Shown piece after piece: positions 37,501 through 55,884 of a stretch of 64,000 bases of DNA. The position numbers and the translations under genes were made by a program. The stretch spans positions 186,001 through 250,000 of the forward strand of contig WGNX01000005.1 of the NCBI GenBank assembly GCA_016124335.1. Direction: 5' to 3'. The first letter of the stretch is position 1. Each line of letters starts with the position of its first letter. The notes below the pieces were generated by a model. It was given only the letters and a program-made list of their open reading frames with translations, was not told the DNA's origin and ran no database searches. Origin of the DNA: Alphaproteobacteria bacterium. GTDB taxonomy: Bacteria > Pseudomonadota > Alphaproteobacteria > CACIAM-22H2.

Positions 37501-37568
37501 TTTCCATGTAAAATTTACTTACCCTGGCACCTTCCGGGGTGAGCGGCCCGTTGGAGTGCGATCCCCCC

Positions 37569-40500
37569 ATGTCCGAGGCGTCGCGAGCGAAGAATCGCCG
37601 TGCGCACGACCGCCGAAGCGCCCGCTGGGGCCGCGGCCGGTTGCGTCGGCTTGGGCTCGGCTGGCCTTTGGCGATGGCGCTGGGCGGGCTTTCCGCGCCC
37701 GCATTCGCGCAAAGTCTTCCGCAGGGTGGCACCGTCGTCGGCGGCTCGGGCTCGATCCAGCAGCTCGGCCCGACGCTGCTGCAGATCCAGCAGAACACGA
37801 ACCAGCTCGCGATCGACTGGCAGAGCTTCAATGTCGGCTCGGGTAGCATCGTGCGTTTCCTGCAGCCGGGCGCCGATTCGATCGCACTCAACCGGGTGAT
37901 CGGGCCCGATCCGTCGCAGATCTTCGGCCAGATCCAGGCGAACGGCCGCGTCGTCATCCTCAATCCGAACGGCATCTATTTCGGTCCGTCGAGCCGGGTT
38001 GACGTATCGGGCCTCGTCGCGACGACGGCGAATATCCGCAACGAAGACTTCATGGCCGGCCGCCTTCTGTTCGATCAGGCCTCGGCCAATCCCGATGCCC
38101 GCGTGGTGAACGAGGGCGTGATCTCCATTGCCGACGGCGGCTTCGCCGTTCTCGCGGCCGCGGGCGTTTCGAACACGGGCCGCATCATCGCGGCCGGCGG
38201 CGACGTCGTGCTCGCGGGCACGAAGACCTTCACGATCGATTTCTACGGCGACGGCCTGTTGAGCTTCGCGGCGACAGGTCTTGTCGACCGTGCGCCATCC
38301 GGTGCCGCGGCATTGGTCGACAATTCGGGCGTGATCGAGGTTCCCGGCGGGCGCGTGCTGATGACCGCGCGTGCCGCGCGCGACGTGCTCGACAACGTCA
38401 TCAACACCTCAGGCATCGTCGTCGCGACGAGCGCCCAGATGGTCAACGGCGAAATCGTCATCGACGGCGGCGACGCCGGCGCCGTCAACGTCTCGGGCAC
38501 GCTCGATGCCTCGGGCAAGGGTGCCGGGCAGACGGGCGGCACGGTCAAGGTGCTCGGCGAGACGGTAAAGCTCAACGCCGGCGCGTCCATCGACGTTGCG
38601 GGCGATGCCGGCGGCGGTACCGCCATCGTCGGCGGCAACTTCAAGGGCCACGGGCCGGAGCCCAACGCGAAGGTCGTCTACATGGACGCCGCCGCGATGA
38701 TCGATGCCAGTGCCGTCACGTCCGGCAATGGCGGCAAGGTCGCGCTGTGGGCCGACGATACGGCGAACGTCTCGGGCCGCATTTACGCGCGCGGCGGTGC
38801 GACCGGGGGCGACGGCGGCTACATCGAGACGTCGGGCAAGAACCGCATCTCGTTCGGCGACACGTTTGTCGTCGATACGCTCGCACCGTTCGGCAAGGCG
38901 GGCTCGCTGCTGATCGACCCGACCGATTTCGTCATCCAGACGGTCGGCGGCGACATGACGCCGGCGGTGCTGATTGGCCTGCTGGCAGCGGCGGACGTGA
39001 CGATCGATTCCACGTCGGGCGGCGGCGGCACGACCGGCACGATTTACATCAACAACGCCGTCGTGAACACGGCCGCCACGGCGCGCACGCTGACGCTCAA
39101 CGCGATGGGCGACATCCAGATCGCCGCCGGCGTCAGCTCCACGCTCTACCCGCTGAACCTGAGCCTTCAGGCGAACGGCAATATCGTCGTGGGCGGCGCG
39201 ATCACGACCAACAACGGCAATATCGTCACGCACGCCTATGGCGGTGCGGGCACGGCGGTCAATTTCTCCAGCACGTCGGCCATCGATGTCGGTACGGGCA
39301 ACATCACGCTGAACCTGTCCGGAACGGTCGATTTCGGGGCGAACGTGACGTCAACCGGCACCGTTTCGCTTGCAGCCGGCGGTGCCGTGACGCAAAGCGG
39401 CGGCGGCTATTTCGCCGGCAACAGCGCACTCGTGGTCGGCGGCACGGGCAGCGTGACGCTTGCGGACGTCGGCAACGGGTTCAACAGCGTCACGTTCAAC
39501 CGTACGGGCACGTCGAACGATGTCACGCTGGCGACGTGGATATCGCCCAACGTCCAGGCCTCGACACTCGGGACCGGCAACTACTCGCTGACCGGTCAAG
39601 GTTTCCTGCAGTCCGGCGCCATCGTGCAGGACGCCGGAGGCGGCACGGTCGACATCATCGGCGGCACGGGCAACGTCACGCTCTCGAGCGCCAACAGTTT
39701 CACCGGCGCCCTGACCGTCACCGGCCAGCAGATTTCGGTCTCCAATACGCTCACGGCTACTGGCAGCGGCAGCATCACGCTGAATGCCACGCAGAACGTC
39801 ACGGTCTCCAGCGCGATCTCGACCGTCTCCGGCGACATCCTGATCGAGGGCAACGTCGCGTCGTGGACCGGCCCGTACACGAGCAACGACCCGACTTTCG
39901 CTTCCGCGTCGGGCAATTTTGCCGGCGTCACCCTCGCGGCCGGTTCGTCCGTCATGTCGGCCGGCGGCAACATCGCGATCGCCGGCAAGGGCGGCGACAC
40001 GAACTACAACCAGTTCGGCATCTACATGAATGCCTCGACGGTCGTTTCGACGACCGGCACGGGCGCCGTGACCTTGGTGGGCGAGGGCGGCGCGTCGTCG
40101 AGCGACCTGTTCGGTTCCGGCGGCTCGCACACAGGCATCTATCTCAATGGCGGTGCCACCGGCACCGCGGTCGACATCAGCACGGTCAACGGCGACATCC
40201 GGATGCTCGGCACCGGCGGCGGCGTGGGCACGACCGACAACAATGGCGGCGTCGCGTTCCTGTGGGCCAAGGCGCGCTCGACCGGCGCGGGCTCGATCGA
40301 CATCACAGGGTTCAGCGGCGCCGGCGCCAGCCGCGGCGTCGTGATCGCGCTGACGGGCTCGGAAGTCACCACCTCGTCGGGCAACGTGACGATCACGGGC
40401 ACGGGCGGCGGCGCCCAGCTCACCGGGGCGGGCTTCGTCAGTTCCGGCGTCAGCATCGGCGACGGTCTGGTCCGCTCGATGGGGGCAGGCAACGTCGTTG

Positions 40501-43500
40501 TCGACGGCATCCAGGGTGCGTCCGGCTACGGCATCGAGATCGGTACGGGCGCCAGCACGATCGGCAATGTCGCCATGGTGGGCGACCTCACGATGGAGGC
40601 GGACTCGTATCTTCTGAACGGAACGGTCGCCTTCGCGCATTCGGCGGCAAGCGGAACCATAAATTTCGAGACTGACAACGACGCGACGACCATCGGCGTC
40701 AATGGCGGTTCGGGGTCGCTGGTGCTTTCCGGCGGGATGCTCGGCTCGATCACGGGCTTCGCCAATCTCACGATCGGCTCGGCGACGCAAACCGGCGACA
40801 TCCAGGTCGACAACACCGCCTTCGCGCAGAACCTGACGCTGCGCACGCAGGGCGCGGTCTACACGAACTCGCTGACGATGGGCTCAAACGACCTGACGAT
40901 CTACGCCGACGCCGGATATACGCAAGGGACCGGCGGGCTGACGACGACCGGCACGCTGACCTTCGCGGGAACCGGCGCCGTGAGCGCGACGAACGGCGGC
41001 AACGCATTCTCCAACCTCGTGCTCAACAAGTCGGGCGCGGCCGCCGTTTCGCTCGCCACGAGCGGTGCGGTCGATCTCCAGGCCAGCACGATGGGCACCG
41101 GCGCGCTGAGCCTGACGGCCGTGGGCGTGACGCAATCGGGTGCGCTCGTGACCGGCGGCGACATCTTCGTCGATGGCGGTACCGGCAACATCGCGATGAC
41201 GAATACCGGAAACGCGACTTCCGGAAACGTGCGCTTCGCGACGGCGGGTGCAGGCAACGTCGATTTCTACAACGACATCGCGACGAATTTCGGCGGCGGC
41301 ACGACAGTCGTGGCCGGCGATCTGACGGTCAACGGCTCGCCGTCCTCGGGCCTTGCGCACGTCACCCAGTCCAGCGCCCTTTCGGTCGGCGGCAACGCGT
41401 CCTTCAGCGCCTACGCGTCGAACGTCACGCTGATGAACCCGTCCAACAGCGTCGGCGGTTACTTGGCCTTCGCGAGCAACGGGCTTGGTGACGTCAACTA
41501 TACCGGCGCGGGTGCGGTCGTTCTCGGCGACGCGCTGGTCGCGCACCTCAACATCACCGCAGGCGGCAACATCACGCAGCAGGGCGCCACGGCACTCCTG
41601 GCGGGCTATGGCGCAACCTTCAATGCCGGCGCAAATGCGATCGCGCTGAACAATTTCGGCAACCAGTTCACGGGCCCGGTCGGCCTGACGACGACAGGCG
41701 CCAACGACGCATCCATTACGAACTCGATCGCGCTCGAGTTCGGGGCCACGAGTGTCGGCGGCAACCTGAACGTGACGACGACCGGCGCAAGTTCCGATAT
41801 CACGCAATCGGCGCCGGTCTCGGTCGGCGGCGCGCTTGCCATCGTGTCGGCGGGCGGCAACATCACGCTCAATCAGGGTGCCAACACGTTCACCGGCACG
41901 GTGGACGTCACCAATACCGGCACGGGCAGCCTCGACATTCAGGCCGGCGGCCCGCTGACGCTGGGCACGATTTCGCTCGCTTCGGGTGATCTGTCGGCCG
42001 TGGCGCTCGGGCAACTCGAACTGGCCAGCAACATCACCATGGCGGCGGGCAAGAACATCGACCTGACCGCGAATGGCTTGTCGACCGCGCTGATCCTCGT
42101 TTCCGGCAACGTTACGCTCAACGGCGGTAATTTCTCGGCGGCGTCGGCGCGCTCGGTCATGCTGGTGGGCGACCTCACGACGAACGGCGGCGACATCACG
42201 CTCTACGGCAGTACCGGGGGCGGCACCGGCGATTTCAGCGCCGTCAACGTCACGGCCACATCGCTCGTGGACGCCGGGGGCGGCAACATCCTGATGTCGG
42301 GCATTGGCGGCGACAGTACGCTCGACCACGGCGTCATTATCGCCGCGACCACCGTGCAGACGACCGGAGCCGGCACGATCACGCTTGGCGGCACTGGCGG
42401 CAATTCGTCGGGCGGCATCAATGTCGGCGTCTATCTCTATGCGGGCGCCGACGTGCATACTTCCAACGGCTTGATCACGCTCAACGGCACCGGCGGGAAC
42501 GGCTCGGGGACTAACAATCCGGGCGTTGCGGTCGAGGGGTCGAGCGTGCACACCACGGGCACGGGCGATATCAGCGTCACGGGCCAAGGCGGGTACGAGG
42601 GCGCGGGCGTCGTCGTATCTGGCACCGGTGGCGAGATCGCCACCTACGGCGGCGGCAATATTTATGTCACCGGCACCGGCGGCGCGACGGGCTTGGCCGG
42701 CGGCCTGTTCGGCATCTACGTCGCCGATCTGGGTTCTGGAGCCGGTACGATCTCGGCATCCGGTACGGGATCCGTCACATTGACCGGCACCGGCGGCGCG
42801 GCGGCGACCACGAACAATCATGGCGTAGTGATCGAAAGCGCCACGGTGTCGGCCGGAACGGGCGGGCTCTCGGTCACGGGCACATCCGGCGGCGGTGCCA
42901 CGTCTGGCGGCATCGATCTCGCGACCGGCGGATCGCTGGTCTCGACCGGCAACGTCACGCTCGACGGCAGCGGGTCGACGAATACCGGCATCTTCGAAAT
43001 CGGCGGCGGCCCGATCACGGCCGGCGGCACGGTTTCGCTCACCAGCGACAACGGCATCTCGCTCGACGGATCGGTCGTCACCGCGCCCGGCGGGCTGACG
43101 ATCGCCAGCACCTTCGGCAACGTCTCGCTCGGCAATTCGAGCAACACGATATCCGGAAACATCGTGGCGACGGCCAGTGCGGGGGATCTCACGCTCGTCA
43201 ATAACGGCACCACCTCTATCGGCGCGATCAACGTCTCGAACAATTTCGGTCTCACCTCGGCCGGCACGATCTCGCAGATCGCGGGCATCACCGTCGGCGG
43301 CACGGCGACATTCACCGCGATCAGCGGCGACATCACGATGAATTCGGGCAACGTCGTGACGGGCGACATCGTTCTCAGCACTTCGGGCGGGAATGCCGCA
43401 TGGAACCAGACCGGCGCTGCCAGCTTCGGCAGCAGCTCGGTCTCCGGCACGCTCGCCGTCACGGCGTCGGGGGATATCTCGCAGACCGGCCCGTTCACAG

Positions 43501-46500
43501 TCGGCAGTTCCGCGTCGTTCGACGCGGGCGCGCACCAGATCATGCTCGCCGATCCGTCAAACAGCTTCGGCGGCAGCGTCGCTCTCTTCAACTCCGGCAC
43601 CAATGCCGTGGCGCTCTCGGCGGCCGGCACGCTTGACCTTGCCGCTTCCAACGTCGGTTCCGCGACCACGACCATCTATTCGGCCGGCGCCATCACGCAG
43701 TCGGGCATCCTGACTGCCGCCGGCAACATCGATGTTTCCTCGGGCGGCAATATCACGATGGGCTCGGTGACCAACTCGGTTTCCGGCAGTGCCGCCTTCA
43801 GCACGACCGGCAACGCTACGTTCCACAATGGCGGCGCGACGCTACTGGGCCTCAGTACCGTGGGCGGCAACTTCACGGTGACCTCGGATGCCGGTATCGG
43901 CCAGGTCGGCCCGCTCTCGGTCAACAGCGCCACCTTCAACGCGGCGGGCAACGTGTCGCTCGTCGATCCGGCCAACACGGTGGCGCTCACGCTGAACGCG
44001 ACGACGACGTCCGGCGGCGATTTCGACTTCGCCGGGACCGGCAGCGTGCTCACCGGCACGATGAACGTCGCGGGCAATCTCGGCATTTCGCTCGACAGCG
44101 GTTCGCTCACGCAGTCGACAGCCTATACGGTCGGCGGCATGGCTATTCTGGCGACGACGTCGTCGGGTTCGATCACGCTGGGCAAGGTCAACACGTTTGG
44201 CGCTGGCGCCAGCGTCACCGCCGCCGACGCGCTCACCATTTCCGACAACCAGACCGCGACGACCGGATCGTTCATCGCGAACGCCGGTTCGACGCTGACG
44301 GTTTCCAACGCGAGCGTCACGACGAACGGCGGCATGATCTCGCTCGGTGCGGGACAGAATGTTTCGCTGTCGACCGGAACGCTTGCCTCCAACGGCGGCA
44401 ACATCGCGCTGACGGGCAGCGGCGTCGGCAGCGGCAACTATTCGGGCATCGAGCTGCTGTCTTCGACCGTGTCGGCCACCGGCGGCGACATCACGATGAC
44501 CGGCACCGGTGGCGACACCAGCAACAGCAACATGGGCATCTGGGTCGGGTCGTCGACGACCGTCGACACGACCGGCACCGGCAACATCACGATGATCGGC
44601 AATGGCGGCACGGGTGCCGGTGGCGGCAATGTCGGCGTCTTCGTTTATGCCGGTTCGATTTCCGCGGGTGCCGGTACCATTTCGATCACCGGCACCGGCG
44701 GCGGGCCGGCCAGTTCGGATCACGGTGTCGCGGTGCAGCTCGCCGGCACGGTGGCCGGGACGGGCGATGTCTACGTGACGGGCATGGGCTCGGCGACCGG
44801 CAGCGGCAACGGCATCGTGATCGACGGGATCGGCTCCGGCGTATCCAGTTCTGCCGGCACGCTGTCGCTCGACGGCACGGGCGGCGCGTCGGCCGGCGCG
44901 AACGTGGGCGTTGCCGTGTCGAACGGCGGCATGGCGAGCGCGACAGCCGGCTGGCTTGACGTCATGGGCACCGCTGGCGCGGGCACGAACGCGGGCATCG
45001 ACCTTTCCAACGGCGGCGGTACGGGCGGGCTCGTCTCGACGGGCGTTGCGCTGGTCTCGCTCACCGGAATCGGAGCGGGCGGTGCCGACGGGATCGCGGC
45101 GTCGGGAACCACCTCGATGATCGGCGGCGGTTCGGCGACCGGCGACATCTCGATCATCGCCGATCAGCTAACCTCGCTCGGCGCAGTCACGATCCAGACG
45201 ACGGGTACCGTCCAGTTCGCGCCCTACCTCACGTCGACGAATATCGGCATCAACAACAGCATCGATCCCTTCAATCTCGACGGCACGACGCTTGGATCCG
45301 TCACGGCCGGCGGCATCGTGGTGGGCAGCGGCGCGCAGAACGGCATGATCACGCTGGGCACCGACGCGGCGAACACCTTCTCGACGCCGCTGACCATCCT
45401 GGGCGGCACCGGTGCCGACGTCGCGATCGACGGCGGGCTGACCAGCACGTCGAACGTCACGATATCGACCGCCGGGCTGATCACGCAGTCGGCCCCGGTC
45501 AGCGTGACGGGTGCCGCATCGTTCACGGGCGATGGCGGCATCCAGCTCGACAATCCGGCCAATACGATGAGCGGTCATATCCTCGTCAGTTCCGCCAGCG
45601 GCAACGTGACCGTCTACAACACCGGGCCGACCGTATTCGGCGCGAGCAATGTCTTCGGCTCGCTCGACGTGATCGCGACGGGCGGCGATGTCGGGCAGGT
45701 CGCCGCAATCTCCGTGGGCGGGCCGGCGAGCGTGTCGGCCGACCAGAACATCACCTGGAACAACATCGGAAACGTTTTCGGCGGGGCGCTGTTCCTGACG
45801 AATACCGGTGCCTACTCGATCTCGGTCGCGGCAAGCGGCGGGCTGACGCTGGGCGACGTGAGCATGAACCCGGCCGCGGCGGGCTCGTTCTCGGCCAGCG
45901 CCACGAACGGCTTGGCGCAGTCGTCCGGCGCGATGCTGACGACGGGCACGGGCGCCACCACGCTTGCCGGCGGATCGGCCAATGTGGAACTGGGCGAGGC
46001 GACGAACGCGTTTGGCGGCACGCTTTCGCTGTCCGGTGCCGGCGGCACGCTCGTGGGCACCGTCAACGGCGCGTCGGGTGCGACCGCCGCGCAATATGTC
46101 AGCTCGACCGCCGGCACGTTCGACTTCAACGGCGTGACGATCATCGCGAACACGCCACCGGCGACGACGACCACGACGACCGTCACGCAAACCGAACAGA
46201 CGACAATCACCAACGCGGTATCGGGCTCGACCTCGACCACCAATACGAATCTCCAGACGACGACGGGCGGCGCGACGTCGAATGTTTCGCTCGGCGACCT
46301 GACAGGCGGCGGCGGTGGGACCGGCGGAACGACAGGCGGCCTGACGGGCGGCGATACCGGCGGCACCGGGACCGGCGGCGGGGTCACGATCGTCACGAGC
46401 GGCGAGACGGGCGGCGGCGGAACGGGCGGAAGTGGCTCTGGCAGCGGCGGCACCTCGGGTGACGGAAATTCCGATCAGCCGACGGGCACGATCGTCGTCA

Positions 46501-46709
46501 GCAGCGAGACCGGCGGCACCGGCAATGGCGGCGGCACGACCGGTGGCGGCACGAACGGCGGTTCGACAACGGTCGATGCCAATCCGGGCAATCCGGGGGG
46601 CACGACGCCGCTTGCGGGCAATCTGCTCGGGACGTCGAACAGCGGCGGCACGACGTCGGTCGGACAGGTCGGCAGCTCCAATTACGGCGGGAACCTGCCA
46701 ATCCCGTGA
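37569..46709 (+). CDS. Giant two-partner-secretion exoprotein (TpsA / filamentous-haemagglutinin-like)
   Basis: This is a 3046-residue secreted protein. A basic N-terminal extension and signal peptide end at AFAQ (residue 48). The TPS secretion domain follows (about residues 49-170) with IQQNTNQLAIDWQSFNVG, LNRVIGPDPSQIFGQI and the diagnostic NPNGI at 132-136. The rest is beta-helical repeats rich in G, T, S, N and V, with recurring ITQSGxxxxGG and TGTGGxxxx units. A Thr/Gly tail (from about 2865) ends without a beta-barrel, sortase or Cys anchor. Export should need a TpsB outer-membrane partner, which is not in the window. ATG 37569 is used; the in-frame GTG at 37539 has no ribosome site. 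A CHAT/FecR/cyclase operon lies 3 kb downstream. Confidence 0.9.
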   Translation: MSEASRAKNRRAHDRRSARWGRGRLRRLGLGWPLAMALGGLSAPAFAQSLPQGGTVVGGSGSIQQLGPTLLQIQQNTNQLAIDWQSFNVGSGSIVRFLQPGADSIALNRVIGPDPSQIFGQIQANGRVVILNPNGIYFGPSSRVDVSGLVATTANIRNEDFMAGRLLFDQASANPDARVVNEGVISIADGGFAVLAAAGVSNTGRIIAAGGDVVLAGTKTFTIDFYGDGLLSFAATGLVDRAPSGAAALVDNSGVIEVPGGRVLMTARAARDVLDNVINTSGIVVATSAQMVNGEIVIDGGDAGAVNVSGTLDASGKGAGQTGGTVKVLGETVKLNAGASIDVAGDAGGGTAIVGGNFKGHGPEPNAKVVYMDAAAMIDASAVTSGNGGKVALWADDTANVSGRIYARGGATGGDGGYIETSGKNRISFGDTFVVDTLAPFGKAGSLLIDPTDFVIQTVGGDMTPAVLIGLLAAADVTIDSTSGGGGTTGTIYINNAVVNTAATARTLTLNAMGDIQIAAGVSSTLYPLNLSLQANGNIVVGGAITTNNGNIVTHAYGGAGTAVNFSSTSAIDVGTGNITLNLSGTVDFGANVTSTGTVSLAAGGAVTQSGGGYFAGNSALVVGGTGSVTLADVGNGFNSVTFNRTGTSNDVTLATWISPNVQASTLGTGNYSLTGQGFLQSGAIVQDAGGGTVDIIGGTGNVTLSSANSFTGALTVTGQQISVSNTLTATGSGSITLNATQNVTVSSAISTVSGDILIEGNVASWTGPYTSNDPTFASASGNFAGVTLAAGSSVMSAGGNIAIAGKGGDTNYNQFGIYMNASTVVSTTGTGAVTLVGEGGASSSDLFGSGGSHTGIYLNGGATGTAVDISTVNGDIRMLGTGGGVGTTDNNGGVAFLWAKARSTGAGSIDITGFSGAGASRGVVIALTGSEVTTSSGNVTITGTGGGAQLTGAGFVSSGVSIGDGLVRSMGAGNVVVDGIQGASGYGIEIGTGASTIGNVAMVGDLTMEADSYLLNGTVAFAHSAASGTINFETDNDATTIGVNGGSGSLVLSGGMLGSITGFANLTIGSATQTGDIQVDNTAFAQNLTLRTQGAVYTNSLTMGSNDLTIYADAGYTQGTGGLTTTGTLTFAGTGAVSATNGGNAFSNLVLNKSGAAAVSLATSGAVDLQASTMGTGALSLTAVGVTQSGALVTGGDIFVDGGTGNIAMTNTGNATSGNVRFATAGAGNVDFYNDIATNFGGGTTVVAGDLTVNGSPSSGLAHVTQSSALSVGGNASFSAYASNVTLMNPSNSVGGYLAFASNGLGDVNYTGAGAVVLGDALVAHLNITAGGNITQQGATALLAGYGATFNAGANAIALNNFGNQFTGPVGLTTTGANDASITNSIALEFGATSVGGNLNVTTTGASSDITQSAPVSVGGALAIVSAGGNITLNQGANTFTGTVDVTNTGTGSLDIQAGGPLTLGTISLASGDLSAVALGQLELASNITMAAGKNIDLTANGLSTALILVSGNVTLNGGNFSAASARSVMLVGDLTTNGGDITLYGSTGGGTGDFSAVNVTATSLVDAGGGNILMSGIGGDSTLDHGVIIAATTVQTTGAGTITLGGTGGNSSGGINVGVYLYAGADVHTSNGLITLNGTGGNGSGTNNPGVAVEGSSVHTTGTGDISVTGQGGYEGAGVVVSGTGGEIATYGGGNIYVTGTGGATGLAGGLFGIYVADLGSGAGTISASGTGSVTLTGTGGAAATTNNHGVVIESATVSAGTGGLSVTGTSGGGATSGGIDLATGGSLVSTGNVTLDGSGSTNTGIFEIGGGPITAGGTVSLTSDNGISLDGSVVTAPGGLTIASTFGNVSLGNSSNTISGNIVATASAGDLTLVNNGTTSIGAINVSNNFGLTSAGTISQIAGITVGGTATFTAISGDITMNSGNVVTGDIVLSTSGGNAAWNQTGAASFGSSSVSGTLAVTASGDISQTGPFTVGSSASFDAGAHQIMLADPSNSFGGSVALFNSGTNAVALSAAGTLDLAASNVGSATTTIYSAGAITQSGILTAAGNIDVSSGGNITMGSVTNSVSGSAAFSTTGNATFHNGGATLLGLSTVGGNFTVTSDAGIGQVGPLSVNSATFNAAGNVSLVDPANTVALTLNATTTSGGDFDFAGTGSVLTGTMNVAGNLGISLDSGSLTQSTAYTVGGMAILATTSSGSITLGKVNTFGAGASVTAADALTISDNQTATTGSFIANAGSTLTVSNASVTTNGGMISLGAGQNVSLSTGTLASNGGNIALTGSGVGSGNYSGIELLSSTVSATGGDITMTGTGGDTSNSNMGIWVGSSTTVDTTGTGNITMIGNGGTGAGGGNVGVFVYAGSISAGAGTISITGTGGGPASSDHGVAVQLAGTVAGTGDVYVTGMGSATGSGNGIVIDGIGSGVSSSAGTLSLDGTGGASAGANVGVAVSNGGMASATAGWLDVMGTAGAGTNAGIDLSNGGGTGGLVSTGVALVSLTGIGAGGADGIAASGTTSMIGGGSATGDISIIADQLTSLGAVTIQTTGTVQFAPYLTSTNIGINNSIDPFNLDGTTLGSVTAGGIVVGSGAQNGMITLGTDAANTFSTPLTILGGTGADVAIDGGLTSTSNVTISTAGLITQSAPVSVTGAASFTGDGGIQLDNPANTMSGHILVSSASGNVTVYNTGPTVFGASNVFGSLDVIATGGDVGQVAAISVGGPASVSADQNITWNNIGNVFGGALFLTNTGAYSISVAASGGLTLGDVSMNPAAAGSFSASATNGLAQSSGAMLTTGTGATTLAGGSANVELGEATNAFGGTLSLSGAGGTLVGTVNGASGATAAQYVSSTAGTFDFNGVTIIANTPPATTTTTTVTQTEQTTITNAVSGSTSTTNTNLQTTTGGATSNVSLGDLTGGGGGTGGTTGGLTGGDTGGTGTGGGVTIVTSGETGGGGTGGSGSGSGGTSGDGNSDQPTGTIVVSSETGGTGNGGGTTGGGTNGGSTTVDANPGNPGGTTPLAGNLLGTSNSGGTTSVGQVGSSNYGGNLPIP

Positions 46710-49764: not shown

Positions 49765-51921
49765 TTATTTCGCGTCGAGGGCCGTGACGCCGGCCCAATC
49801 GGCGCCCGGCGGATCGATATCGAGCGCCGCTGCACGTTCGGCAAGGCTCAGGGCCGCCGGGTCGCCGGCCAGCGGCGCGGCGGCAAGGATCGCGCAGGCG
49901 CCCGCAAAATCCCGCGCCCGGTAACGGGCAAGCGCGGCGGCAAAGGCCTCGGCGCGCGCGGGCACGTCCGCCTCGACTTCGCCTTCTAGCCCCATCGGCT
50001 CGAAAATCGTCACGGGCTTCGCGCGGCCCTTCACCTGAACCCGATCAAGCTCGCGCCACACGATCGCCGGGCCGGCGGCCGCATCGGCAAGGTCGCGAAC
50101 GGCGTCCGAGCACATCACGTTCGTGCCGAAATACTTGTTCGCCCCTTCGAGCCGCGAGGCGAGATTCACCGTGTCGCCCATGACCGTGTAGTTGAAGCGC
50201 TTCTTCGAGCCGATATTGCCGACCAGCGCCCGGCCGGCATTGAGTCCGATGCGCGCCTTGAGCTTGTGGCCAAGGAACGGCTTGGCCGGATCGGCGTTCA
50301 TTTCGGCAAGCTTCGCGTTGCACGCGATCGCGGCCTCGACCGCGTTTCGTGCGTGGCTGCGGTCGTCGACGGGCGCGCCGAACACGGCCACGATCGCATC
50401 GCCGATATATTTGTCGACGAAACCGCCATATTCCTCGACGATGTCGGTCATCGCGGAGAGATAGACGTTCATCACCTGCACGAGCTGCTGCGGCGTCAGG
50501 CCTTCCGACAGGCCGGTGAAGCCCGCGACGTCGGAGAACATGACGGTGATCTCGCGTTCCTCGCCGCCAAGCTCGGGCGGCGCTTCGGCCGCAAGCAGCC
50601 GGTCGACCATCGTGGGTGCAAGGTAAAGCGCGAAGGACCGGCGCAGCAGGCGCTTGTCCTTGTCCGCCACCGCGAAGCGGTAGCCCAGCAGTGCGGCACC
50701 CGCGGCGAACGCGGCGGCAAGTGCGGTCAGGAACGGCCAGACCAGCCCGAAGCGGAGTGCAGCGACGCTCGCCACCGTCCACAACAGCGCAAGGCCGGCG
50801 AACGCGAGCGCCGCGCCGGCCGCCGGCAGCGACATCGCGACGGCCGCCGTCGCCGCCAGCAGCAGCAGGGCGGCAAGCCCTTCGCCCGTCGGCCCCAGTT
50901 CGGTGAGGCCACCGCCGCCCAACAGGTTGTTGACGAACGTCGCATGCACGAAAACGCCGGGGATCGAATCGCGCAACACGTCCTCGCGCACGATGTCGGT
51001 CCGCTTGGGAAGCGCACAGCGGTCGGCGAAGGCCGCGTCCTCGGGGCCTGTCATGTAGCGGCGGGCCGTGAGCTTGCGGTCTTCAACGTCGAGCACCGCA
51101 CCGAAGAACACGACCTTGTCCTTGAAGTGCTTTGCGAAGAAATCGGCATCGCCTTTTTCCACGCACGCCCGCAGGTCGGCCAGCGAGAATGCCGGGATGT
51201 CGGCGCCGCCGCCCTGGAAATCGAGCGGCATGGCGTTGTCGCCCGATCCGGGAAGGCGCCTTCCCGCAAACCAGATCCCGTCAGCGCGAAGCTCGGGTTT
51301 CGCCTTTCGTGCGCGCATGGCCGCTTCAAGGCCAAGCGAAGGCTGTTTGCCCACGCCGCCGGCAGCGCCGGCATCCTCGATATCGAACAGCAGCGGGGCG
51401 CGCCGGATCACCTCGTCGGGATCGCGGAACAGGTTCGTCGCGCGGATATTGGCATCGTGCCCGACCGCGACCGACTGGCCCTGGAAGGGCAGGATGGGCG
51501 AGGCGCCATGCTGCACCTTGCCCAGGATGACGCGGCCCTCGCGCGCACCGGCGCGTAGTGCACGCAGCCAGTCGCGCTCGAAGCCCGGAATGAAGCGCTC
51601 GACCGATGTGGGGAAGATCACGTCGAAGGCCGTGACGGCGGCACCGGCATCGAGCACGGCCCCCAGTACCGGTGCGATCTCGCGCGGCCAGAAGGCCTGC
51701 GGCACGCCCGCGAAGGGGGGCGTGCGATAGGTCTCCTCGTCGAGCGCCACGACGACGCTTTGCGAATCGGCCGGCGCGTGCCGGGCCCCGAAAATCGCGT
51801 GACGCAACGCGAAGGCGACGTCGAGAGAGACACCGCGCAGCGAATCGGCCAGCGGCGAGGCGACCGCGAGCGCACCCAGAACGACGGCGGCCAACGCCGC
51901 AGCGATGTCGCGGCGCTTCAT
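49765..51921 (-). CDS. CHASE2-domain class III adenylyl cyclase
   Basis: This 718-residue membrane protein has an N-terminal helix (1-30), a periplasmic CHASE2 sensor (about 45-335), three transmembrane helices (about 346-414), a cytoplasmic class III cyclase domain (about 455-640) and a short helical tail. Metal-binding Asp464 (FSDVAGFT) and Asp508 (YIGDAIVA), adenine-specifying Lys504/Thr579 as in class IIIb cyclases, and Asn586/Arg590 (NLASR) are all present, so activity is expected. CHASE2 senses an unknown extracytoplasmic signal. It starts 7 bp after the FecR-like gene, third in the CHAT operon. Confidence 0.93.
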   Translation of the reverse strand: MKRRDIAAALAAVVLGALAVASPLADSLRGVSLDVAFALRHAIFGARHAPADSQSVVVALDEETYRTPPFAGVPQAFWPREIAPVLGAVLDAGAAVTAFDVIFPTSVERFIPGFERDWLRALRAGAREGRVILGKVQHGASPILPFQGQSVAVGHDANIRATNLFRDPDEVIRRAPLLFDIEDAGAAGGVGKQPSLGLEAAMRARKAKPELRADGIWFAGRRLPGSGDNAMPLDFQGGGADIPAFSLADLRACVEKGDADFFAKHFKDKVVFFGAVLDVEDRKLTARRYMTGPEDAAFADRCALPKRTDIVREDVLRDSIPGVFVHATFVNNLLGGGGLTELGPTGEGLAALLLLAATAAVAMSLPAAGAALAFAGLALLWTVASVAALRFGLVWPFLTALAAAFAAGAALLGYRFAVADKDKRLLRRSFALYLAPTMVDRLLAAEAPPELGGEEREITVMFSDVAGFTGLSEGLTPQQLVQVMNVYLSAMTDIVEEYGGFVDKYIGDAIVAVFGAPVDDRSHARNAVEAAIACNAKLAEMNADPAKPFLGHKLKARIGLNAGRALVGNIGSKKRFNYTVMGDTVNLASRLEGANKYFGTNVMCSDAVRDLADAAAGPAIVWRELDRVQVKGRAKPVTIFEPMGLEGEVEADVPARAEAFAAALARYRARDFAGACAILAAAPLAGDPAALSLAERAAALDIDPPGADWAGVTALDAK

Positions 51922-51928
51922 GCCTGTT

Positions 51929-52585
51929 TCAGAGCCGGATGAGGCGGCCCACCAGCGGCGCCTGCCCGGGCCGCGCTTCGGGATCGACCTTGAACACGAT
52001 CTGCTTGCCGGCGGCCGTGAGACGGTAGATGCCGCCCGCCGCAAGCGCCTTGTTGGCCTTCGCAAGATCGTAGAACGATCCGCGCATGAGCTGCTGGGCC
52101 GGCACGTCGAACGCCATCGGCTCGCCCGGCTGGTCGACGCGTGCGATCGTCACATGGCCGCCGCCCTTGATGTCGAGCACGGGCGAAAGCCCGTAGATCG
52201 TCATTTCGGGGGTTGCCGCCGCGGCTGTCGGCTTGGGGGGTGCACGGAACACCATCACGCCCGACTTCGCCGCCTGATCGGAGGAAAGCCGCATCTTGCC
52301 GCCATCGCACGGCGTCTTCTCGCGCTTGACCGTGCCGCCTGCCACGGCCGACTGCTCGGCCCCGACCGTCACGGTCCCGCCCTTGATCGTCTCGCGCCAG
52401 CACGAGCGCAGATAGCTCAGCACCAGCTCGTCGTTGGCACCCAGCTTCACCACGCGGCCCGCTTCGACATAGTCCATGAAGTCGACATCAAGCTTGCCCT
52501 TGGCGTCCTCGACGATCGCGACGGGATCGGCGGCGAGGGCGGGGCCTGCGCAAAGGATCAGCGCGAGGGTGACGAGAAGACGCAT
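51929..52585 (-). CDS. FecR-like exported protein
   Basis: This 218-residue periplasmic or secreted protein has a signal peptide (RLLVTLALILCAGPALAA) and then a FecR-like beta domain: VEAGRVVKLGANDELVLSYLRSCWRET, a GGTVTVGAEQS strand, and a Cys pair (SCWRE, TPCDGG) that could form a disulfide. It lacks the N-terminal cytoplasmic anti-sigma segment and no sigma factor is nearby, so it is not a classical iron-signal FecR. Related FecR-only proteins accompany CHASE2 cyclases and CHAT proteins. ATG 52585 is chosen because GGAG lies six bases upstream and the signal peptide starts there. Confidence 0.8.
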   Translation of the reverse strand: MRLLVTLALILCAGPALAADPVAIVEDAKGKLDVDFMDYVEAGRVVKLGANDELVLSYLRSCWRETIKGGTVTVGAEQSAVAGGTVKREKTPCDGGKMRLSSDQAAKSGVMVFRAPPKPTAAAATPEMTIYGLSPVLDIKGGGHVTIARVDQPGEPMAFDVPAQQLMRGSFYDLAKANKALAAGGIYRLTAAGKQIVFKVDPEARPGQAPLVGRLIRL

Positions 52586-52620
52586 GCGGGGCTCCAACAA
52601 GGCTGCGATTGCGGACGGTT

Positions 52621-55600
52621 TCACCGGATCTGGGCGGTCTGCCTGCCGCCGCCGCCATCGCCCACAAGGGCGAACGGCGCCCAGAAGATCGGGTGCGAAT
52701 AGGCGAAGACCGGCTGGTTGGTCTGCGCATCGATGTAGCCGCGCCCGTCGATTAGGGCCGTCATCGCCTGTTGCAGGGCCGTTGCGCGCGCGAGATTCGG
52801 ATCACGCGCCTGGCGGGCGAACAGGTCAGTCGTCAGCGTGCGGGCACTCGTCGTCTCGACCGGCCAGTTGGTCACCAGCAAGGCGCGCGTACCCGCATAG
52901 AAGAACGCCCGGCCGAGACCGGAAACGGCTTCCGCCCCCGCCCCGTCGCCCGTCGCCGTGTTGCACGCCGACAGCACGACCCAATCGGCATTGAGCTTCA
53001 GGCCCAGCACCTCGTCCAGCGTCAGCAGGCCGTCCCCGTCCACGTCGGCCACGTTGGGGGCGGACAGCGCCAGTGCGGGCTGCGTCAGCCCGTTGAGGTC
53101 ACCCGGGATAAGCCCGTGGGTGGCGAACATCACGACGCGACGGTTCGAAAGGTCCATCGTCTTGACCGTCTTCTCGTTGGCCGCAGCACCCAGGATCACG
53201 TCGCCCGCATCGGCATGCAGCGCCACGGCAATGCCTTTCACCTCGTCGGCCGTGTCGGGCAGGCGCGGCAGCATCGCCAGTTCGGCGCTGTCCACGTTGG
53301 CGGTGGCGGGCGCCGAACGGCGTACCAGCTTCACGCCGCGCGTCTGGATGCCGCGCGTGGTGAGCTGGGCGACCTGCGTTGTGGCAGCCGCCTTCGCCTC
53401 GGCCATCTGCTCGGGGCTGAACCACGGATCGCCGAAGCCCACGAACGCCTTGCGGTTGGCCGGGGCCGCCGGCAGCGCGCGCAGCGTGCCGAGCGAGGCG
53501 ACCGAGGGCAGCTGCGTGATGCCGGCCTTGCGGATCAGGAAGGGCACGTTCTTGTACGCCGAGAACAGCGCCTCGCCGTCCTTCTCCGCCGCAAGCTGGG
53601 TGGGCTGCGTGACCAGCACGGCAAAGGGCAACTGGCCCAGCACGTCGTGCGGCACCACCAGCAGCGAATTCGCCTGCGCGAAGCCCGCTTCGACCGGCTT
53701 CAGCAGGTCGTCGTAAAGCCGGCTTGCCAGCGCCACGTCGAAGGCCGGGATGTCGCCAAGCGTGCCCGCGTTGGGATCGAGCGCCTTGCGCAGGTTCGCG
53801 ACCGTCGCGGCCATCGCCTTGCGACCCTTCGGTACCAATGCGAACGCGGCATTGCCCGATTGCGGCACGGCCCACACGAAGCTCTGGTCGCGGCCCACAT
53901 AGGTCGCGATCAGTGCTTCGCCCGGGCGTAACGCTTTGCGCGCCTGCTCGACCGTCGCCGGGCGCGGGTCGATCAGGTTCACGTAGTCCGGAAAGCGCTT
54001 CTCGATCTCTTCGCGGATCGCCGATCGCGCGGAGCGCAGCGTATCGATCTGCTTGCGAAGTGCGGCGATGGCGGCATCGTCGCGCTCGGGTGCGGCCAGC
54101 ACGTTCGTCAGCAGGCCCTGCAGCGCGCCGACCTGCTTCTGCGTATCCTGTTCGTTGCGCACAAGCCCGGCCAGTGCCGGATCGGACGCCGCCGCGCGCG
54201 CCGAGGACTGCGCCAGCGCGCGCTGCACGCCCTGCCCGCGGATCGCATCGGCAAGCCGGAACGATTCTTCCGCGGCACCCGGTCGCTTGGAAAGCGAAAG
54301 GGCGCGCATCACCGCCTCGAACACGACCCGCAACTGGGAATCGCGCGCGGCCGAGCCGCCATCCTCGTCGCTGTCGGCCTGACGCGAGGTCTGAAGCAGG
54401 ATCGGCGTGGCGGTGTCGAATTCCACCAGTGCGCCGGCGAGATCTCCGGAGCGGAGCTTCGCAGATCCGAGCAGCGCCCGGGCCATCGCCGTGTCCCACG
54501 CGCGCTCGCCCATTTTCTCGGACGTGCCCTTGGCGACGTTCGTCAGGACGCGTACGGCTTCCTGCGCATCGCCGGCGCGAAGCGAAACCATGCCCCAATG
54601 CGGATTGTTGTCGAACAGAACGCGGATCGCGTCCGGATTTCCCGCGACGCGCGTGCGCAGCTCGCCATAGGTGGCCGCCGCCGCCTCCCAGTCGTCGCGC
54701 TGGCTCTGGGCACGCGCGATCTGCCGAAGGGCCCGGCCGTACACGCCGGCGGACGGATCGATTTTCATCGAATCGAGCGTTTCCATCGCCGCGCGGGCAA
54801 GCCGCTCGGCCTCGGCATGACGCCCCTGGTCGCCGATGATGTCGGCAAGGCCAAGCACGACGTTCGTCGTTTCGCTCGAGTAGCGGCCGGTCATCGAAAG
54901 GCTCTGCAGCAGGACCGACCGCATCTCGACCTCGGCTTCCAGCAGGCGCCCCTGCCGGCGCAACGCCACCGCGAGCTGGCCGCGCATGTACATGCTGAGC
55001 TGCGTGAAGTTGTTTCGCGGCAGGTTTGCCTGCGCGGTAATGGTCGCTTCGTCGCGGACGGTGCGCTCGTTCGACTGGATTGCCAGCCGTATGAGGCGTT
55101 CCGCTTCCCCGAATTGGCCGGTTTCCTGCGCGATCATCGCCTGCGTTCGGCGGAGGAACGTTTCCGCGTGATTCGCCAGCCATTGCGGGGCGCGCGAATT
55201 GTTGCGCTGTTCGGTCACTCCGGATTCGATTTTCGGAATCTGCGCGCGCGCAAGATCGAGTTCTCCCAGTCCGATCGCGGTGGCGACGATCTGCTGGTAG
55301 GCCGCAATGCGCTGGCCGGTATTGAACGCCGTGGCCGCGAGTTTCTCGCGGATCTCGAGCGACGTACGGAGATGGCCGGCGAACTGCTCGGCAAGGGCCC
55401 ACTGTTCGAGATAGCGCGCGACGAGCTGCGGCGGCGCGCCCGCGCCCTGCGTGGCGTCGGCGGGGCGGCGCTGGCCGCGCTGTTGGGGAACCGGCTGGGC
55501 CGACGACCCCGATTGGGTCAGCTCGTAGGCCTGCTTGATGTCGTCGCGGCGCTGGTTGGCGCGGCCCAGTTCGGCTGCGGCGAGGCCGCGCTGATAGTAG

Positions 55601-55884
55601 AACGCGGCGAGATCGACATTGTTCAGGTCCTTGGACGGCTGCGCGTCGGCTTTGGCGACGGCGGCGGCGACTTTCGCGGGATCGGGCTTCTGCTGGTCGA
55701 GGATCGCGGCGATGTCGGAAATCGTGCGCGGCGGCGGGCGGAAGCCCTGGCCCTGGAACTCGGCCGTGATCTGCTTGGCTTCCTGGAGGCTGACGGCCGG
55801 CTTGCCATCCGGTTCGCATCCGGCAAGGACCGAGGCGGCAAGGGCGCAGGCCCCCGCGACCACGATGCGCAGCGATGTTTTCAT
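52621..55884 (-). CDS. TPR-CHAT domain lipoprotein (caspase-like)
   Basis: This 1087-residue protein is predicted to be a lipoprotein: the lipobox SVLAGC has Cys23. Residues about 45-620 are helical tetratricopeptide-type repeats (YYQRGLAAAELGRANQRRDD and others). The C-terminal CHAT domain (about 660-1080) has catalytic His923 (FATHGLIPG) and Cys974 (LSACNTATGDG), the separase/caspase-like dyad, and ends HPIFWAPFALVGDG as the family does. Between His and Cys lies DVDGDGLLTLDE (947-958), an EF-hand-like loop. The protein should face the periplasm or surface. GGAGGG precedes the ATG. First of the operon with the FecR-like and cyclase genes. Confidence 0.92.
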   Translation of the reverse strand: MKTSLRIVVAGACALAASVLAGCEPDGKPAVSLQEAKQITAEFQGQGFRPPPRTISDIAAILDQQKPDPAKVAAAVAKADAQPSKDLNNVDLAAFYYQRGLAAAELGRANQRRDDIKQAYELTQSGSSAQPVPQQRGQRRPADATQGAGAPPQLVARYLEQWALAEQFAGHLRTSLEIREKLAATAFNTGQRIAAYQQIVATAIGLGELDLARAQIPKIESGVTEQRNNSRAPQWLANHAETFLRRTQAMIAQETGQFGEAERLIRLAIQSNERTVRDEATITAQANLPRNNFTQLSMYMRGQLAVALRRQGRLLEAEVEMRSVLLQSLSMTGRYSSETTNVVLGLADIIGDQGRHAEAERLARAAMETLDSMKIDPSAGVYGRALRQIARAQSQRDDWEAAAATYGELRTRVAGNPDAIRVLFDNNPHWGMVSLRAGDAQEAVRVLTNVAKGTSEKMGERAWDTAMARALLGSAKLRSGDLAGALVEFDTATPILLQTSRQADSDEDGGSAARDSQLRVVFEAVMRALSLSKRPGAAEESFRLADAIRGQGVQRALAQSSARAAASDPALAGLVRNEQDTQKQVGALQGLLTNVLAAPERDDAAIAALRKQIDTLRSARSAIREEIEKRFPDYVNLIDPRPATVEQARKALRPGEALIATYVGRDQSFVWAVPQSGNAAFALVPKGRKAMAATVANLRKALDPNAGTLGDIPAFDVALASRLYDDLLKPVEAGFAQANSLLVVPHDVLGQLPFAVLVTQPTQLAAEKDGEALFSAYKNVPFLIRKAGITQLPSVASLGTLRALPAAPANRKAFVGFGDPWFSPEQMAEAKAAATTQVAQLTTRGIQTRGVKLVRRSAPATANVDSAELAMLPRLPDTADEVKGIAVALHADAGDVILGAAANEKTVKTMDLSNRRVVMFATHGLIPGDLNGLTQPALALSAPNVADVDGDGLLTLDEVLGLKLNADWVVLSACNTATGDGAGAEAVSGLGRAFFYAGTRALLVTNWPVETTSARTLTTDLFARQARDPNLARATALQQAMTALIDGRGYIDAQTNQPVFAYSHPIFWAPFALVGDGGGGRQTAQIR

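Follow-up and report, generated by a model that had tools for sequence, protein, structure and literature searches.

In the metacaspase of Candida glabrata, Ca2+ is held by a loop in a small unit, built from a pair of strands and one short helix, that follows directly after the catalytic His. Its ligands are Gly196, Asp198, Asp214, Thr242 and Asp245, and the ion has been proposed to draw the catalytic pair together (PMC9622860). Calcium loops of the form Dx[DN]xDG also occur outside EF-hands, and the sections of the Rigden and Galperin survey cited here describe them as convergent, arising in many unrelated and mostly extracellular folds with the help of Asp/Gly interchange. According to the same sections, these loops tolerate missing flanking helices, and the share of members bearing the motif ranges from under 1% to about 90% per family (PMC3123361).

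The window analysed here, a stretch of 64,000 nucleotides of alphaproteobacterial DNA, encodes a CHAT-domain protein in which a 12-residue loop, DVDGDGLLTLDE, matches the EF-hand calcium-loop consensus exactly. We examined its origin by alignment, phylogeny, genome scans and structure prediction, and asked how it compares with these systems.

The CHAT protein and its neighbours

The protein has 1087 residues (52621..55884, reverse strand) and combines a lipoprotein signal, a TPR region and a CHAT caspase-like domain. Pfam CHAT (PF12770) covers residues 718-1076 (2.2e-48, 165.6 bits against a cut-off of 24), with weak TPRs N-terminal to it (TPR_12, 1.2e-5). Membership of the CHAT family is further supported by alignment A1 of the CHAT domains of the relatives searched, in which the catalytic His923 (codon 53116..53118) and Cys974 (codon 52963..52965, both reverse strand) are invariant. 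Pfam returns CHAT and no C14 match on this protein, which is not a C14 p20 domain by that measure. An AlphaFold2 model of the domain has a mean pLDDT of 88, rising to about 92 round the loop, and its best fold matches (VIA-align) are Csx29/TPR-CHAT and separase at a Z of about 25, followed by gingipains and, near Z 10, by caspases and a metacaspase. When the whole protein and alignment A1 were compared by sequence with solved structures, no caspase-fold match was found and the matches were to TPRs, coiled coils or at chance level.

The N-terminus closes with LAGC-E-P-D, and this pattern assigns it to the bacterial lipoproteins, with a lipobox (LAGC, residues 20-23; 55816..55827, reverse strand) at the end of the signal peptide. 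Most of the orthologues checked carry an equivalent box, LAGC, LIGC, LAAC, ISGC, LTAC or LVAC, followed by an acidic residue or Gln. Because lipoboxes recur in this way, it is very likely that the protein is a lipoprotein facing the periplasm or the outside, and the proposal of an exported enzyme in the first-pass annotation stands. One orthologue (L033 9980-13178), from a MAG that bears the title Asaia bogorensis, is interrupted near residue 996 by a change of frame and reflects either an assembly error or a pseudogene.

At its stop, the CHAT gene overlaps the ORF that follows, which opens at 52624 and encodes a secreted protein of 218 aa from MRLLV (51929..52585, reverse strand) with no match in Pfam or NCBIfam. 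About 7 bases beyond this gene lies that of a CHASE2 sensor with an adenylate/guanylate cyclase domain, 718 aa from MKRRD (49765..51921, reverse strand; Pfam CHASE2 1.7e-24, Guanylate_cyc 8.4e-25). Both neighbours are conserved: among the loci examined, 17 have the trio of lipoprotein CHAT, secreted protein and CHASE2-cyclase (window 49765-55884), and these represent seven family codes of the class, with a convergent orientation at some of them. No CRISPR genes were present among the neighbours examined of the CHAT gene. Trio-linked CHATs carry Dx[DN]xDG in 12 of 17 cases and lack it in five, which means that the motif is no defining feature of the system; we set this association aside as evidence on the motif because most of the 12 are close orthologues.

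In four relatives, the gene of a secreted Peptidase_C14 caspase (L114 8868-10238, Pfam 1.9e-44; L115 10492-11937; L116 5782-7143; L117 7302-8663) separates the CHAT gene from that of the secreted partner, so that a single locus encodes two proteases of the caspase fold, each of a different kind. The C14 gene is absent at the window's locus and was not found in its genome, which is 75% complete. Elsewhere in the window, positions 37539-46709 encode a 3056-aa secreted haemagglutinin-like (TpsA-like) protein with TIGR01901 and 15 DUF5649 repeats; considered as a further member of the module, it was rejected, as none of the other CHAT genes examined had it nearby. The locus ties these probably lipid-anchored CHAT proteases to a CHASE2-cyclase in at least seven of the class's families. 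This pairing is apparently undescribed, and the literature searched yielded no paper on it.

An EF-hand-like loop on a CHAT-native scaffold

The loop spans residues 947-958 (53011..53046, reverse strand) between His923 and Cys974, with D, D, D, G, L and E at residues 947, 949, 951, 952, 954 and 958; the translation agrees exactly with the coordinates, numbering and placement reported in the first-pass annotation. When a 27-residue stretch, the loop with its flanks alone, was compared with solved structures, EF-hand proteins and calmodulins were the best matches (best E 3e-6), with Entamoeba-type calcium-binding proteins among them. On the whole protein, Pfam EF-hand_1 reaches 11.3 bits (E 0.27), below its cut-off of 25.4 bits. 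The AlphaFold2 layout is a one-turn helix, coil at loop positions 1-6, a strand at 7-9 and a helix from 10, which falls short of a helix-loop-helix: the exit helix is predicted, but the entry is a single turn (384-387 in the model). The loop does contain Dx[DN]xDG with a later acidic residue (DVDGDG...E).

Much of this resemblance belongs to CHAT domains in general. In alignment A1, Gly6 and Leu8 are invariant, Asp5 is present in at least 90% of rows and position 12 is nearly always Glu or Asp, the usual loops of the aligned relatives being DPADDGLLEASE or TPEDDGLLTASE. Since D5, G6, L8 and E/D12 occur in nearly all relatives, half of the EF-hand match is imposed by the CHAT family. As judged from the alignment, the DG-x-L-x-x-x-E half is CHAT-native and the special part of the loop is D1-x-D3-G4 only, which bears out the earlier description of DGLLT as a usual CHAT element. 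Structure prediction for a paralogue from the same genome, whose loop is DPADDGLLEAGE (DPADDG, without D3), gives EEEHHH at positions 7-12, as in the window protein, and a helical turn where the window protein has open coil ahead of the strand. The exit half of the loop is therefore inherited and the entry half alone differs. Together, the CHAT-native half in relatives and the layout shared with a D3-less paralogue argue that no EF-hand domain was inserted.

We measured the frequency of the motif with a CHAT-specific DNA pattern, checked on known loci and then applied to 385 genomes from the class and 349 from the phylum. The patterns fix D5, G6 and an acidic residue at position 12 by construction, leaving only positions 1-4 informative, and a reversed control pattern gave zero matches in either set. 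The class yielded 56 loops with D1 in 8 and D3 in 16, both being present in 3 under strict matching and in 4 with Asn allowed at position 3; the phylum added 22 loops and one more Dx[DN]xDG (DGDSDG). Overall, 5 of the 78 sampled CHAT loops carry the motif against about 2.5 expected from single-position frequencies (Fisher p 0.11), which by these counts is not significantly above expectation.

In a tree of 92 CHAT domains, in which the loop columns were kept (about 12 of 435), the window's domain falls in a clade of 19 with support of 100/97. All 19 members of this orthologue clade have D3-G4-D5-G6 and E12, and 13 have D1, which is replaced by Gly in five of the remaining six and by Lys in one. 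Codons at position 1 within the clade are GAC or GAT for Asp and GGC for Gly, one transition apart. Little can be read from the invariance of D3, since 166 of the 437 columns of the clade alignment do not vary and conservation extends over the entire catalytic segment, including nearly the whole 949-958 stretch. Over the full tree, at least five changes of Dx[DN]xDG fall on branches with good support, and L113 (DVDGDG), L109 (DQNGDG) and L041 (DGDGDG) are separate cases. In independent pairs, D1 and [DN]3 lean towards changing together (about 3.3 versus 0.1 of 10), a trend drawn from too few pairs, and their association across the tree is not significant. A natural D1/G1 pair is found in genome G006, whose paralogues L123 8666-11923 and L117 8674-11916 carry GVDGDG and DADGDG.

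Possible roles of the loop

We propose that the loop is the hairpin-to-helix element that CHAT domains natively have behind the catalytic His, rather than an inserted EF-hand, and that in this lineage, as separately in a few more, the residues ahead of the invariant DG changed to D-x-[D/N]-x. Joined to DG, this prefix would complete a calcium loop of the Dx[DN]xDG type, in which the CHAT-native Glu serves as position 12. In EF-type loops, D1 is usually the key first ligand. The motif, its register and the location of the protein suggest that a single Ca2+ would sit in the loop of D1-bearing copies, within the periplasm or on the surface, where it would act as a structural clamp to steady the His923-Cys974 segment and have no switch role. 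We consider such a structural site plausible, with a probability of roughly 45%; the six clade members without D1, the non-significant association of D1 with [DN]3 and the sub-cut-off Pfam EF-hand score count against it. The enzyme itself would be a lipid-anchored TPR-CHAT cysteine protease working with the co-encoded secreted protein and the CHASE2-cyclase, one of which it would most likely cleave or bind.

There is a substantial chance that the loop binds no metal, and that an acidic, Gly-rich CHAT surface loop drifted into the EF-hand consensus by Asp/Gly exchange, leaving D1 and D3 functionless. The same D1 losses and non-significant association would be expected from drift, as would the count of 5 in 78 against about 2.5. 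Drift also fits the five same-context homologues without the acidic triplet (L134, L135, L141, L142 and L150, which lack D1, D3 or both), an observation that the first-pass annotation had named in advance as refuting its proposal and that is realised in part. However, drift would not predict that the trend in independent pairs runs in one direction, that D3-G4 is fixed in the orthologue clade or that the strand and helix are predicted in the register of an EF-loop.

Gating of the protease by Ca2+ as in metacaspases, in which a filled loop would unite His923 and Cys974, was the role first suggested for the loop, and we regard it as unlikely. The analogy holds in that activating Ca2+ is bound in the corresponding element of the metacaspase (PMC9622860) and that export would bring the CHAT protein to the Ca2+-rich side, but the spacing of the ligands differs. 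Orthologues and same-genome paralogues without D1 retain an intact His/Cys site, which disfavours gating, as do the D1 losses within the clade and the five same-context homologues; moreover, no paper in the literature searched joins a CHAT domain, an EF-hand and calcium, or Csx29 and calcium. The original observation is confirmed and its interpretation partly supported. We find it distinctly improbable that the native loop of a periplasmic TPR-CHAT protease evolved into an EF-type Ca2+ site setting its activity, such that external Ca2+ would act through proteolysis on the CHASE2-cyclase and cyclic nucleotide signalling. That a genuine EF-hand segment was grafted into the domain is scarcely credible: the isolated stretch does match EF-hand proteins best, but there is no insertion, the loop aligns nearly ungapped with ordinary CHAT loops, its exit half is CHAT-native and graded intermediates exist among CHAT loops (GVDGDG, GGEGDG, GEGGDG).

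If the loop binds Ca2+ as a structural site, CHAT would be a new fold in which the convergent Dx[DN]xDG motif has arisen. It would come with a supported tree of gains and losses by single Asp/Gly steps, a matter that the cited sections of the earlier survey leave unsettled (PMC3123361), and the D1 and G1 paralogues of a single genome would form part of that record. Otherwise, this is an ordinary CHAT loop of striking appearance.

Comparison with known systems

The metacaspase Ca2+ site (CgMCA-I, TbMCA2) shares with the CHAT loop a caspase-like fold and, between His and Cys, a position in a hairpin with a short helix (PMC9622860). By the order of these elements, rather than by residue-level equivalence, the position of the CHAT loop corresponds to that of the metacaspase site. 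Metacaspase ligands are dispersed, whereas the CHAT loop is EF-type, and because of this different spacing the analogy is one of place and not of motif.

Loops of the Dx[DN]xDG class outside EF-hands resemble the CHAT loop in the exact motif, the later acidic residue, the exported protein, the existence of motif-less homologues and the Asp/Gly interchange. In the cited sections of the survey that defines the class, no CHAT or clan CD context is reported, and the CHAT loop differs in being known here from sequence, with a putative metal (PMC3123361). The EF-hand itself (Pfam PF00036) agrees with the loop at positions 1, 3, 5, 6, 8 and 12 and in the short strand and following helix that are predicted; unlike it, the CHAT loop scores below the Pfam cut-off, is single and has one predicted helical turn ahead of it where an EF-hand has its E-helix. 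TPR-CHAT proteases, such as Csx29 of Craspase, and separase are the best fold matches and share the His/Cys site, whereas the window protein carries a lipoprotein signal and is encoded beside a CHASE2-cyclase.
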